From Vicinamibacteria bacterium (GTDB taxonomy: Bacteria > Acidobacteriota > Vicinamibacteria > Fen-336), in NCBI GenBank assembly GCA_025923995.1, contig JAICEW010000030.1, forward strand, positions 1-32,224: DNA of 32,224 nucleotides. The letters are read 5' to 3'. Position numbers and translations under genes: made by a program. Each line of letters starts with the position of its first letter. Position 1 is the first letter of the stretch. The notes beneath the pieces are model-generated. The model saw only the letters and a program-made list of their open reading frames with translations. It was not told the DNA's origin and made no database searches. Shown here in pieces: positions 7,655-11,999 of the stretch.

Positions 7655-7712
7655 TGACCTCCGAGGTCATCGCTTTCGGACCTCCGCGGACCGATGTTCT
7701 TCCGCGGAGGTC
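7655..7712. promoter_or_regulatory. Palindromic operator-like sites covering the hydrolase ribosome-binding site
   Basis: TGACCTC-C-GAGGTCA (7655-7669) is a perfect 15-bp dyad. A second, larger inverted repeat pairs GACCTCCGCGGA (7679-7690) with TCCGCGGAGGTC (7701-7712) across a 10-nt loop. The 8-mer GACCTCCG therefore occurs three times (7656, 7679 and inverted at 7705). The right arm contains the GGAGG (7706-7710) that serves the ATG at 7721. Either a repressor operator or an RNA hairpin that hides the ribosome-binding site would fit; the first dyad could also help end the thiC transcript. Confidence 0.5.
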
Positions 7713-7720
7713 ACGAGCGC

Positions 7721-8650
7721 ATGCAGAGAAGGGCTCTCTTCGGGTCGATGCTGTCTGCCGCGGCCGGCGCGGCGCTCTCGGGCGGCGGCGTCGCCTCGGC
7801 CGCTCCGGCCCGGCCGGGGATCATGGACGGGCGTGCGCGCCACTTCCTCGACGCCGGCGACGGCACGAGCCTCTTCTTCAAGGACTGGGGCGGCGGCCCG
7901 CCGGTCGTCTTCGTCTCGGCGTGGGGCCTCAACTCGGACGCCTGGGTTTACGAGATGACGTACCTGGCCGACCACGGCCTGCGCTGCGTCGCCTACGACC
8001 GGCGCGGCCACGGGCGCTCCAGCCAGCCCGGCCGCGGGTACGACTTCGACACGCTGGCCGACGACCTCTCGGTGCTGCTCGAGTCCCTCGACCTGCGCGA
8101 CGTGACGCTGGTCGGGCACTCGATGGGCTGCGCCGAGGTGGTGCGCTACCTCGCGCGGTACGGCGCGTCGCGCGTGGCCCGCGCGGTGCTCGTCTCGACC
8201 GTGACTCCCTGCACGGTGAAGTCGGCCGAGAACCCCGACGGCGTCGATCGCGCGATGCTGGACGCGGGGCGCGAGCGGCTGCGCCGGGACTTCCCGCGGA
8301 CCGTCGACGAGGCGGCGCCCGGCTTCTTCGGCCCGGCCAACCCGATCTCCAGCGCGACCCGCAGCTGGTGGACCGGCATGATCCTCCAGTGCTCGCTGCC
8401 TGCGCTCATCGAGCTGCACCGGGCGTTCACGGAGACCGACTTCCGGCCGGAGCTGCGCTCGCTGCCGGTGCCCGCCCTCCTCGTCCACGGCGACAGCGAC
8501 GTGTCCACGCCCCTGGACCGCACGGGCCGACGCTCCGCCGCGCTCGTCCCGCGCGGCCGGCTCGAGATCTATGCGGGCGCGGCCCACGGCCTGCCGCTCA
8601 CGCACGTCGACCGCCTGAACGCGGACCTGCTGGCCTTTGCGCGCTCCTGA
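7721..8650 (+). CDS. Exported alpha/beta hydrolase (Tat-like signal)
   Basis: This 309-aa alpha/beta-fold hydrolase has the nucleophile Ser134 in GHSMG, an acid in the HGDSDVSTP region and His289 in GAAHGLPL. FKDWG, the FVSAWGLNSDAW oxyanion-loop region and YDRRGHGRS match the non-haem chloroperoxidase/arylesterase group of hydrolases. The start at ATG 7721 is chosen because GGAGG lies 10 nt upstream and because it places twin arginines right at the front (MQRRALFG) followed by an Ala/Gly-rich hydrophobic segment ending near ASAAPA, a Tat-like signal. The ATG at 7694 would lie inside the hairpin loop with no ribosome-binding site. Substrate unknown; probably periplasmic. Confidence 0.85.
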   Translation: MQRRALFGSMLSAAAGAALSGGGVASAAPARPGIMDGRARHFLDAGDGTSLFFKDWGGGPPVVFVSAWGLNSDAWVYEMTYLADHGLRCVAYDRRGHGRSSQPGRGYDFDTLADDLSVLLESLDLRDVTLVGHSMGCAEVVRYLARYGASRVARAVLVSTVTPCTVKSAENPDGVDRAMLDAGRERLRRDFPRTVDEAAPGFFGPANPISSATRSWWTGMILQCSLPALIELHRAFTETDFRPELRSLPVPALLVHGDSDVSTPLDRTGRRSAALVPRGRLEIYAGAAHGLPLTHVDRLNADLLAFARS

Positions 8651-8654
8651 CCCT

Positions 8655-9185
8655 CTAGCCGGCGGGCGTGGCGACGGCCGACTCGAGTGCGCGACGGAAG
8701 GAGCGCGCGTCGAGAGCGGGATAGCGGTACAGGGCGGGCTCGATCGCGTCGAAGAGCTCGACGAGCCGGGCGCGCTGCACGAGCCCGCGCACCATCATCT
8801 CCCGCACGTCCCCGGTGTCCTGCGCGTGGCCGCGCTCGATCTTGGCCAGGGCCTGGGCGTAGAAGTCGTAGTGATGGAACGCGACGTGGCCTTCCTGCGT
8901 GACGAAAGGGCTCCGCGCCTCCCAGCCCGGCAGCTCCGGGATGAAGTGCGCGGGCGAGACCAGCTCGACGTTGAGCTGGAGCTCCTCCTTGAGGGCCGGC
9001 AGCGCCCGCAGCAGCGGGTCCGACTCGGGCTGGAAGACGAGGTCGACGTCGATCGTCGAGCCCCGCCAGCCCTCGAGAACGGCGCTGGCTCCGCCGGTGA
9101 GATAGGCGCGCGTAGGGGAATCCGACGCGCGCCCCAGAGCATGCATGAACCGGCGGATGCGGTCCCGGTCCGCTAGCTTCCGCAC
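8655..9185 (-). CDS. Nucleotidyltransferase-like protein (DUF6036-type)
   Basis: This 176-aa protein contains YLTGGASAVLEGWRGSTIDVDLVF near residues 28-51, the Gly-Gly, Arg-x-Thr and Asp-x-Asp arrangement of minimal nucleotidyltransferase folds such as DUF6036 and the AbiEii/MNT groups. Several such proteins are parts of toxin-antitoxin or abortive-infection pairs. The remainder is helical (FYAQALAKIERGHAQDTGDV, with the K-x-x-R/E-x-D pattern also seen in AbiEii-like proteins). The GTG start at 9185 overlaps the end of the upstream 89-aa gene by 13 nt, so translation is coupled. It converges on the alpha/beta hydrolase with a 4-nt gap. A toxin-antitoxin role is inference. Confidence 0.8.
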   Translation of the reverse strand: MRKLADRDRIRRFMHALGRASDSPTRAYLTGGASAVLEGWRGSTIDVDLVFQPESDPLLRALPALKEELQLNVELVSPAHFIPELPGWEARSPFVTQEGHVAFHHYDFYAQALAKIERGHAQDTGDVREMMVRGLVQRARLVELFDAIEPALYRYPALDARSFRRALESAVATPAG

Positions 9186-9442
9186 GGAAGCGCCCGCTCG
9201 AAGCTGACCAGGCGCCGCAGGAGCGCGTTGTATCGGCCGTGCGCGGCGTCGGCGTCGTCCCGGCTCAGCGCTTCGTAGAGGCCATGCTCGGGCTCGGGCA
9301 AGGCCTCGGGAACGTCGAGGCCTGCGCGCCGCAGCCGTGGCGCGCCGATCGACACGAGCCAGGCGGGCACGGTACGCCGGCCGCGGCGCAGGTCTTCGAT
9401 GCCTTCGCGGACCAGCTCCGCGCCGGGCAGGCCCTCGTCCAT
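9173..9442 (-). CDS. Small hypothetical protein paired with nucleotidyltransferase
   Basis: This is an 89-aa soluble helical protein whose features are EGIEDLRRGRRTVPAWLV, APRLRRAGLDVP and a C-terminal RYNALLRRLVSFERAL helix. I do not know its function. Its stop lies 13 nt inside the start region of the nucleotidyltransferase-like gene, so the two form a coupled pair, as in antitoxin-toxin or regulator-effector modules. The ATG at 9442 is preferred over the longer ORF-track start at 9505, because a TATCAT -10 box lies exactly 6 nt upstream on this strand and there is no Shine-Dalgarno, consistent with a leaderless transcript. The longer form would begin inside the Rieske leader and read across that promoter. 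Confidence 0.7.
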   Translation of the reverse strand: MDEGLPGAELVREGIEDLRRGRRTVPAWLVSIGAPRLRRAGLDVPEALPEPEHGLYEALSRDDADAAHGRYNALLRRLVSFERALPCGS

Positions 9443-9448
9443 GGGGGG

Positions 9449-9454
9449 ATGATA
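9449..9454 (-). promoter_or_regulatory. Candidate -10 box for the 89-aa/nucleotidyltransferase pair
   Basis: Minus-strand TATCAT (5 of 6 matches to consensus) is followed by six C residues and then the ATG at 9442. This puts the expected transcription start at the A of the ATG. No -35 box was found. Confidence 0.5.
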
Positions 9455-9507: not shown

Positions 9508-9816
9508 ATGGGTGAGTTCCATCGGGCGCTGGCCGCGGCCGACCTGCCGCCCGGCCAGTGCGCCGAGGCCGCAGTCGGCGGCAAGGCCGTGGCCATCTTC
9601 AACGTGGACGGACGGTTCTACGCCATCTCCAACACGTGCCTGCACCGCGGCGGGCCGCTGGGCCAGGGGATGCTGAGCGGGCCCAGCGTGATGTGCCCGT
9701 GGCATGCCTGGTCCTGGGACGTGACCACCGGCGAGAACACCGCCAACCCTGAGCTGAAGGTGCCCAGCTACCCGGTGAAGGTCGAGGACGGGCAGGTCCT
9801 GGTACAGGTGGACTGA
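9508..9816 (+). CDS. Rieske [2Fe-2S] ferredoxin-like protein
   Basis: This 102-aa single-domain Rieske protein has the two ligand motifs C-x-H (CLHRGGPLGQG, about residues 45-55) and C-x2-H (CPWHAWSWD, about 65-73). They bind a [2Fe-2S] cluster through two cysteines and two histidines. Length and absence of a signal or membrane segment match soluble Rieske ferredoxins of dioxygenase systems or NirD-like small subunits. No oxygenase, reductase or nitrite reductase gene lies nearby, so its redox partner is not known. The ATG is preceded by GAGGCGAGG at suitable distance. The stop codon overlaps the ATG of the VWFA gene by one base, so the two are probably translated from one message. Confidence 0.93.
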   Translation: MGEFHRALAAADLPPGQCAEAAVGGKAVAIFNVDGRFYAISNTCLHRGGPLGQGMLSGPSVMCPWHAWSWDVTTGENTANPELKVPSYPVKVEDGQVLVQVD

Positions 9817-11999
9817 TGATGCGTCTGGTGTCGCTCGCGCTGCTCCTGCTCGCCCCCGTGGACGCGCTGGCGCAGGAGCCCTCTCCCTCGCCCTCCGCTC
9901 CGCCGTCGATCCCTGCGTCCCCCGCTCCCGGAGAATCGCCGACGGAGCCCACGCCCACGTTCGCGGCCGGCGTGGAGCTGGTCACGGTGGACGTGGTGGT
10001 CACGGACAAGAAGAACTCCTCGGTCACCGGCCTGCGCCGCGAGGACTTCACGATCCTGGAGGACGGCCGGCCGCAGGAGATCTCGACCTTCGACGCCGTC
10101 CAGGTGCCGGACGCGCCGGCCGCGGTGCCGGCGCCCAAGCCCGCGCTCTCGGTCAACACGGACTCCGGCGAGCGCACCGCGCGCACCTTCGTGATCGTGT
10201 TCGACGACGTGCACCTCACCCTCTTCCAGGCCCAGCGCGCCAAGCTGGCCATCGCCCAGTTCCTGAAGACGGGCGTGCGCGAGGGCGACCGCGTGAGCAT
10301 CGTGGCCACCGGCGGGGGCGCGTGGTGGAGCACGCGCATGGAGGCGGGCCGCGAGGACCTGATGTCCATCCTGAAGCGCCTGGAGGGCCGGCTGGTGCCG
10401 GACACCTCGCCCGAGCGCATGAGCGACAACGAAGCCATGCGCATCCACGTCTACCGCGACAAGCAGGTGGAGGACCGCGTGGCGCGGCGGTTCGACACCT
10501 ACGGGGTGACCGCGCGGCAGAGCGCGCAGGAGACGCAGCCCTATGCGGACGGCGATCCCTTCGTGCAGGCGCGGGCGGCGGACGTCTACTACCAGGCCGC
10601 GTCGCGCAACCGGATCACGCTGCAGGTGCTGGAGCGCGTGCTGCTGTCGCTGGCCGCGACGCGCGGCCGCAAGTCCCTGATCCTGGTCTCGCAGGGCTTC
10701 ATCTACGACCCCCAGCTCGACGAGTTCAAGACGGTCGTGCAGACCTCGCGGCGCTCCAACGTCGCCATGTACTTCGTGGACACGCGCGGCCTGGGCGGCA
10801 TGCCCAGCTTCGCCACCGCCGAGTTCGGCCCCGCCATCGACAACCAGGACATCGGCGCCGCGTTCGGCGACGAGTTCGAGCAGTCGGCCGGCTCGGAGAC
10901 GCTGGCCTCGGACAGCGGCGGCTTCTCCGTCAAGAACACGAACGACCTGGGCCGCGGGTTCGACCGCATCGCGAACGAGACGAAGAGCTACTACCTGATC
11001 GGCTACCACCCGAACAACCCGAAGGAGGACGGCAAGTTCCGCAAGATCGAGGTCAAGGTCGCGCGGAAGGACATCAGGGTGCGGGCGCGCAAGGGCTACT
11101 TCGCGCCGGTGCCGGGCGGCGCGGTGAACGTGCGCAAGGACGCGGCGGGAGACCCGGACATCCAGGCGGCGCTCGACTCGCCGTACGAGGAGAAGGCCAT
11201 CCCGCTGCGCATGTCCGCCTGGGTGTTCGAGGAGACGCTGCTGGGCAAGGCCAACACCATCGTGGCCACCGACGTGGACGTGCGCGAGTTCGCGTTCAAG
11301 GAGCAGGAAGGCCGCTTCCTGGACACGCTCGAGTTCCTGCTGGTGGTCGCGCACCTGGAGTCGGGCGAGTTCTTCCGCTTCGACCAGAAGGTGGACATGA
11401 AGCTGCTGCCGGCCACGCGCGAGCGGCTCGGAAGGTCCTGGTTCCCGATCGTGCGCGATTTCGAGCTGGCGCCCGGGGCCTACCAGGCCAAGATCGTGGT
11501 GCGCGACGGCAACAGCCGGCGCATCGGCACGGTGGTCCACGAGTTCACGGTGCCCGACCTCACCAAGCTGCGCACGTCCTCGATCATCCTGAGCGACACG
11601 CTGCAGCCCGACAAGGCGGGCGAGCGGCCGCGCCCTGCCCTCGTGGTCCGGCGGACCTTCGCGCCCGACACCACGCTCTACGCGCAGTTCGAGGTGTACG
11701 GCGCCGAGAAGGAGAAGGGCTCGGGCATGCCCAAGGTGTCGGCGGGGTACCAGATCCGCCGCGAGGACGGCACCGTCGTCACCCGCATGGCCCCCACGCA
11801 GATCCTGCCCACCTCGCTGGGCAAGCTCTCGCGCCTGGTCGGCACGGAGCTGCGCGACGCGGTCCCGGGCTCCTACGAGTTCGTGCTGGAGCTGAGGGAC
11901 GAGATCGGCGGCGGCTCCGTGGAGATCCGCGAGCCGTTCCGGGTGGACGCGGCTGCGGTCAAGCCCGCCGCCCCGGCCCCCGTGCCCGGAGGCCCCTGA
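9816..11999 (+). CDS. VWFA-related secreted protein (acidobacterial TIGR03436 type)
   Basis: This 727-aa protein has a clear N-terminal signal peptide (LVSLALLLLAPVDALAQ) followed by a Pro/Ser-rich linker. The characteristic VELVTVDVVVTDKKNSSVTGL and REDFTILEDGRPQEI segment identifies VWFA-related proteins that are multiplied in Acidobacteria. The VWA fold follows (FVIVFDDVHLT for the first strand); its metal-ion-dependent adhesion site is degenerate, since the usual D-x-S-x-S is replaced by DDVHLT. A typical YYLIGYHP motif near residue 390 and KIEVKVARKDIRVRARKGYF close the domain; beta-rich modules make up the C-terminus. Export is likely, the ligand unknown. Two ATGs are adjacent (9816 and 9819); the first overlaps the Rieske stop. 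It ends 15 bp from the convergent secG. Confidence 0.9.
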   Translation: MMRLVSLALLLLAPVDALAQEPSPSPSAPPSIPASPAPGESPTEPTPTFAAGVELVTVDVVVTDKKNSSVTGLRREDFTILEDGRPQEISTFDAVQVPDAPAAVPAPKPALSVNTDSGERTARTFVIVFDDVHLTLFQAQRAKLAIAQFLKTGVREGDRVSIVATGGGAWWSTRMEAGREDLMSILKRLEGRLVPDTSPERMSDNEAMRIHVYRDKQVEDRVARRFDTYGVTARQSAQETQPYADGDPFVQARAADVYYQAASRNRITLQVLERVLLSLAATRGRKSLILVSQGFIYDPQLDEFKTVVQTSRRSNVAMYFVDTRGLGGMPSFATAEFGPAIDNQDIGAAFGDEFEQSAGSETLASDSGGFSVKNTNDLGRGFDRIANETKSYYLIGYHPNNPKEDGKFRKIEVKVARKDIRVRARKGYFAPVPGGAVNVRKDAAGDPDIQAALDSPYEEKAIPLRMSAWVFEETLLGKANTIVATDVDVREFAFKEQEGRFLDTLEFLLVVAHLESGEFFRFDQKVDMKLLPATRERLGRSWFPIVRDFELAPGAYQAKIVVRDGNSRRIGTVVHEFTVPDLTKLRTSSIILSDTLQPDKAGERPRPALVVRRTFAPDTTLYAQFEVYGAEKEKGSGMPKVSAGYQIRREDGTVVTRMAPTQILPTSLGKLSRLVGTELRDAVPGSYEFVLELRDEIGGGSVEIREPFRVDAAAVKPAAPAPVPGGP

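Follow-up and report, generated by a model that had tools for sequence, protein, structure and literature searches.

A widespread two-gene module of a DUF6036 nucleotidyltransferase and a small helical protein as a candidate toxin-antitoxin system

Among the described two-gene systems that include a nucleotidyltransferase (NTase), the one that would serve as the nearest working model for the gene pair presented here is MenAT1 of Mycobacterium tuberculosis (MenA1-MenT1, genes rv0078B-rv0078A), whose antitoxin is a short helical protein devoid of a DNA-binding domain (PMC10435456); MenA1 lies over the active sites of a pair of MenT1 toxins, which extend tRNA ends (PMC10435456). Toxin-antitoxin transcripts in M. 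tuberculosis are predominantly leaderless (PMC8485053). In AbiE, the NTase subunit AbiEii is characterized by four motifs, namely G[G/S]-x15-DhD with an arginine, K-x6-R (motif III) and +DxxD (motif IV) (PMC3985639). RelS-RelI was also considered and is unrelated. DUF6036, a curated Pfam family of uncharacterised function, is not mentioned in the literature searched, and the gene pair presented here is real, widespread and unnamed.

The pair is located in a 32,224-nucleotide stretch of Vicinamibacteria DNA (contig JAICEW010000030.1), hereafter the window, belonging to a 6.8-Mb draft genome in which each of the two genes is single-copy. Both open reading frames and their overlap are found on the minus strand exactly where the original prediction had placed them (Table 1). 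Elsewhere in the window, an ordinary TPP riboswitch (Rfam RF00059; 4762-4869, +) lies upstream of thiC, and the Rieske protein is flanked by a 727-aa ORF (9816-11999, +), VWFA-like by eye and without a Pfam match at 1e-5, which is kept beside the Rieske protein in a relative; the many partial matches of its DNA among relatives point to a multi-copy family.

Table 1. Coordinates of the gene pair, its predicted promoter and its neighbours in the window
Feature	Position	Strand	Remark
Small gene, all-helical protein of 89 aa, ATG start	9173..9442 (stop codon included)	-	Proposed antitoxin
DUF6036 nucleotidyltransferase (NTase), 176 aa, GTG start	8655..9185	-	Proposed toxin
Frame overlap of small gene and NTase, 13 nt	9173..9185	-	
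Predicted -10 element TATCAT, leaderless-type promoter of the pair	9449..9454	-	End lies 6 nt upstream of the ATG (9442)
Alpha/beta hydrolase, neighbour of the pair	7694-8650	+	
Rieske protein, neighbour of the pair	9508-9816	+	

The larger protein had been proposed to be a DUF6036-type NTase, and the Pfam search agrees: it matches PF19502 with 30.1 bits (5e-7) for a gathering cut-off of 23.6, as do 57 of 57 aligned NTase relatives at E <= 0.01. The predicted GGASAVLEG motif is present; so is the second motif, read as R-x-T-x-D-x-D-L, but it is one residue longer (R-G-S-T-I-D-V-D-L, hence R-x-x-T-x-D-x-D-L). The motif residues comprise G31-G32, R41, T44, D46-x-D48, E74, K115, R118, H120 and D123-x-x-D126, with G31, G32, R41, T44, D46, D48, K115, R118, H120, D123 and D126 invariant across 57 sequences and the catalytic residues invariant among intact copies. 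The first two residues, M/V1-R2, are conserved in all 57 aligned homologues and the GTG start thus fits the family. AlphaFold models a confident NTase fold (pLDDT 97), the best structural matches of which are NTases at weak E-values (5uvd, TM1012 and MenT1), that to MenT1 (8an5) being itself weak (E 0.16, TM about 0.47); the antibiotic adenylyltransferases LnuA and ANT(2'') are also among the fold matches. The proposed comparison with DUF6036 and AbiEii profiles gave a split answer, since DUF6036 is matched above its cut-off while the window NTase has no Pfam match to the AbiEii/MenT family PF08843 (DUF1814) at E <= 10, a family reached weakly by 5 of the 57 relatives (best 0.001). Motifs I-IV resemble those of AbiEii but their spacing differs (x13 between G-G and D-x-D, a K-R distance of 3), and the NTase is therefore not assigned to AbiEii/DUF1814; the basic residue of motif IV preceding D123 is mostly Gln in the relatives. 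A profile of the NTase family searched against the PDB did not find MenT proteins, and membership in AbiE/MenT was rejected on spacing, Pfam and these PDB profile matches, despite the likeness of the motifs.

The small protein has no sequence match in Pfam, NCBIfam, PADLOC or the PDB, and a fold search of the PDB and BFVD returned nothing credible; that it should fall outside known antitoxin families, as anticipated, is borne out in every library searched. Its description as a small helical protein is in line with the AlphaFold model, in which five helices are predicted (mean pLDDT 94). Residues P6, G14, G41, L55, H68, Y71 and S80 are invariant at the loci found via the NTase, and H68 and Y71 are present in 53 of 53 loci not chosen by that motif; as the pattern used to scan for small proteins required AHSRYNAL, the invariance of H68 and Y71 was measured on NTase-found loci. 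These two residues likely mark the functional face of the small protein, which is conserved as strongly as the NTase. In a deep sister subgroup (L014, L120, L121, L122), the N terminus of the small protein is prolonged by a basic stretch such as ARRAAAARWIAARFG, and the two frames no longer overlap.

The original prediction hinged on the co-occurrence of the two genes in other genomes, and they do co-occur: in about 700 genomes from three phyla (199 + 200 + 297), 48 of 48 close NTases adjoin a small gene, in either order. In the same-phylum sample of 199 genomes, a close NTase is present in 24 and the small protein in 26; all 24 NTases adjoin a small gene, and the two remaining small genes either have no NTase (G083) or reach the contig end (G133). 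Searches starting from the NTase give 16/16 adjacent pairs in the phylum to which L085 belongs (200 genomes; the tree puts L085 among Gemmatimonadota) and 8/8 in that of L071 (297 genomes; Actinomycetota), and a scan with the small protein only yields 80 loci under many phylum names, with an NTase adjacent in nearly all of them; L041, L069, L070 and L082, which are contig ends, were left out. The module is carried by about 12% of the genomes of the phylum, nearly always as one copy, and is present in at least 14 phyla (14 NCBI phyla in the NTase tree); that tree implies 18 changes of phylum where 13 is the minimum, and mis-binned MAGs may account for part of this. The 13-nt overlap geometry of the window is common to most small-first relatives across phyla. 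The predicted antitoxin-first order holds at this locus but is not universal, several lineages being reversed (L010, L011, L079, L084, L167-L169, L171-L173 and the Leptolyngbya plasmid); Leptolyngbya boryana, a cultured species, carries the NTase-first form. At L049 (5998-6948, +), the small protein and the NTase form a natural in-frame fusion, joined by about 54 linker residues, whose fold could show how the two proteins meet; in L056, a near relative, the NTase is gone. With a dN/dS of 0.04-0.21 for both genes in those close pairs that were not saturated, both are, to judge from their sequences, under purifying selection, and because they are also conserved across phyla the pair is not a chance arrangement. 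Among more distant DUF6036/AbiEii-like NTases, those of L149 and L150 adjoin Xre-type helix-turn-helix genes and those of L151-L153 are followed by other small ORFs; it seems that NTases of the DUF6036 type exchange partners.

The small gene had been remarked to appear leaderless, which is plausible in the window, where TATCAT precedes the ATG, and holds family-wide: a -10-like TANNNT is found 4-11 nt, mostly 6-7 nt, before the small-gene start in 76 of 101 distinct loci (NTase-first ones left out), compared with 77 of 946 long ORFs of the same loci and a mean of 10/101 in shuffled upstream regions. The Fisher p for this enrichment is about 3e-50, a value that overstates it as related loci are not fully independent. 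No -35 consensus was found upstream of the small genes, and at several loci lacking the -10 box the small gene begins at the extreme end of the upstream gene.

Site occupancy varies among relatives. In G004, the Rieske/VWFA-like block is preceded by a different gene and the module lies on another contig, and in G005 block and module are likewise on separate contigs; no exact empty site corresponding to that of the window was recovered, the flanks of relatives being too diverged or carrying other genes, and the comparison thus speaks to different site occupancy only. Truncated tmRNA 3' ends, located directly upstream of the module at L038 (1417-1500, +) and L101 (1813-1856, -), look like attachment-site leftovers of an integrated island. 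Plasmid matches of the module are confined to Leptolyngbya, plasmids of these phyla being poorly sampled. Adjacency in 48/48 cases, carriage by about 12% of genomes and differing sites together correspond to the co-inherited, patchy and mobile gene pair expected of a toxin-antitoxin system, and the comparison shows the small gene and the NTase to be one unit, scattered patchily over unrelated sites, whose frames overlap and whose promoter is predicted to be leaderless.

This raises the question as to what the unit does. The original prediction offered toxin-antitoxin or defence; the former is supported indirectly, by an asymmetric decay of the two genes, by patchy, unrelated sites and by the fold match to MenT1, while the latter is not supported. 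Abortive infection (an anti-phage system built on the NTase/small-protein pair) has a precedent in AbiE, a related NTase pair that confers phage resistance (PMC3985639), but it is most improbable here: neither protein matches a PADLOC family at E <= 10, a survey of 128 ORFs around the module returned diverse, mostly metabolic families with no recurrent partner or defence neighbour and with isolated, loose PADLOC matches to broad models, and no module carriers were found among phages and viral contigs; a defence island and phage carriage were rejected on these same grounds. The decay of the genes bears on which of them would be the toxin. The NTase is absent or broken beside an intact small gene at 14 of 76 small-ascertained loci with downstream DNA available (L022, L024, L026, L028, L037, L042, L046, L056, L068, L078, L084, L089, L090 and L096, the damage resting on one lesion each at L078 and L084), no NTase being left anywhere in the genome for L028, L046, L056, L089 and L090, versus a damaged small gene in 1 of 48 NTase-ascertained genomes (L184, where the NTase is intact and the small gene is reduced to its C-terminal H-x-x-Y-N helix). 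The difference (Fisher p = 0.009; 0.016 without L078 and L084) is between two sets gathered by different routes, and when the unbiased sample of 199 genomes is taken by itself it amounts to 2/25 versus 0/24, which is not significant. Its direction fits an NTase that does harm once the small protein is missing; it favours the NTase as toxin and the small protein as antitoxin, as in MenAT1 and AbiE, and argues against type VII roles, in which the HEPN protein is the toxin and the MNT protein the antitoxin. A type VII-like pair with roles reversed, whose NTase would be an antitoxin inactivating a toxic small protein by nucleotide attachment, for instance on Tyr71, as MntA does on HepT, draws on the invariant H68-x-x-Y71, reminiscent of the modified Tyr of the HepT RX4HXY motif (PMC7641770), and on an intact G-G-x13-D-x-D motif in the NTase. 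It is nevertheless quite improbable, since at least five genomes keep an intact small gene without any NTase copy, which a toxin could not do, no conserved Arg lies 4-6 residues before H68, and 89 aa is short for a HEPN domain. No HEPN/DUF86 Pfam match exists in 62 small-protein members, nor any HEPN fold match, and with the RX4HXY motif, the HEPN family and the fold all missing, a HEPN/MNT identity of the pair was rejected.

In pairs of the HI0073/HI0074 type, an NTase is associated with a substrate-binding or activating small subunit. By analogy, the module may be a non-toxic two-subunit enzyme that modifies a metabolite, a drug or RNA, a niche trait its host can do without, with the small protein as its substrate-binding or activating subunit; we consider this unlikely, yet the strictness of H68 and Y71 (53/53), together with the enzyme-level conservation of the small protein, is not usual in antitoxins and leaves such an enzyme a live rival. 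Purifying selection on both genes, the single-copy, patchy yet chromosomal occurrence, the natural fusion at L049 and the resemblance of the NTase fold to LnuA and ANT(2'') are all compatible with it. Pathway neighbours, however, are not conserved, the intact small gene outlasts the NTase, which is odd for a mere subunit, and the mobile unit holds two genes and nothing else.

A horizontally mobile two-gene toxin-antitoxin module, with the DUF6036 NTase as toxin and the small protein as antitoxin, stands as the best reading of these sequences, and a somewhat probable one, although single copies, the lack of phage or viral carriers and plasmids found only in Leptolyngbya are unusual for an addiction module. 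The fuller proposal of a new toxin-antitoxin family of at least 14 phyla, in which a DUF6036 NTase toxin is countered by a five-helix antitoxin not described before, its H-x-x-Y site invariant, and expression relies on a leaderless promoter that is conserved and a 13-nt overlap that is fixed, is evenly balanced. In such a toxin-antitoxin module, the NTase would stop growth by adding nucleotides to RNA or protein in the manner of MenT and AbiEii, the tRNA end being the leading guess for its target. The antitoxin, which has no recognisable DNA-binding domain, would block the NTase by direct binding, plausibly through its long C-terminal helix bearing H68-x-x-Y71. In small-first lineages, a message without a leader would have its antitoxin translated before the toxin, whose start falls within the last codons of the antitoxin gene, and leaderless start and overlap would together keep the antitoxin ahead of the toxin. 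If the pair does work as toxin and antitoxin, the antitoxins of NTase toxins (AbiEi/MenA3-type, MenA1 and Xre) would gain a further class, present in major uncultured phyla of soil and groundwater; the pair would also give DUF6036 a directly testable function and provide a clear example of how a mobile module keeps a leaderless, overlapping layout across phyla.

By comparison with described systems, the pair shares with HepT-MntA (HEPN/MNT, type VII) a small NTase encoded beside a helical partner with invariant His and Tyr, but this partner is not HEPN and has no RX4HXY motif, the NTase belongs to DUF6036 rather than PF01909, and the loss pattern implies opposite roles. Xress-MNTss of Streptococcus suis likewise places a small partner gene in an operon with an NTase, which is reported there as the toxin (PMC8406773); its antitoxin Xress is an Xre helix-turn-helix repressor, which the small partner here is not. 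Like AbiE (AbiEi-AbiEii, type IV), the pair is a bicistron with the proposed antitoxin first and overlapping frames, by 4 nt in S. agalactiae (PMC3985639), and NTase motifs I-IV are recognisable (PMC3985639); unlike AbiEi, which has a winged helix and autoregulates at two inverted repeats, the small partner has no recognised DNA-binding domain, the spacing from G-G to D-x-D is 13 instead of the 15 of AbiEii, and Pfam AbiEii is weakly matched in 5/57 members. From MenAT1 it departs in that the NTases have no sequence match to each other (Pfam DUF6036 here, DUF1814 in MenT1) and that MenA1 has 68 aa and two resolved helices, compared with 89 aa, five helices and an invariant H-x-x-Y in the small protein. 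What it would have in common with MenAT1 is an NTase toxin (about 190 aa in MenT1) and a short helical antitoxin whose gene usually lies upstream (PMC10435456), and its NTase fold matches the MenT1 structure 8an5.
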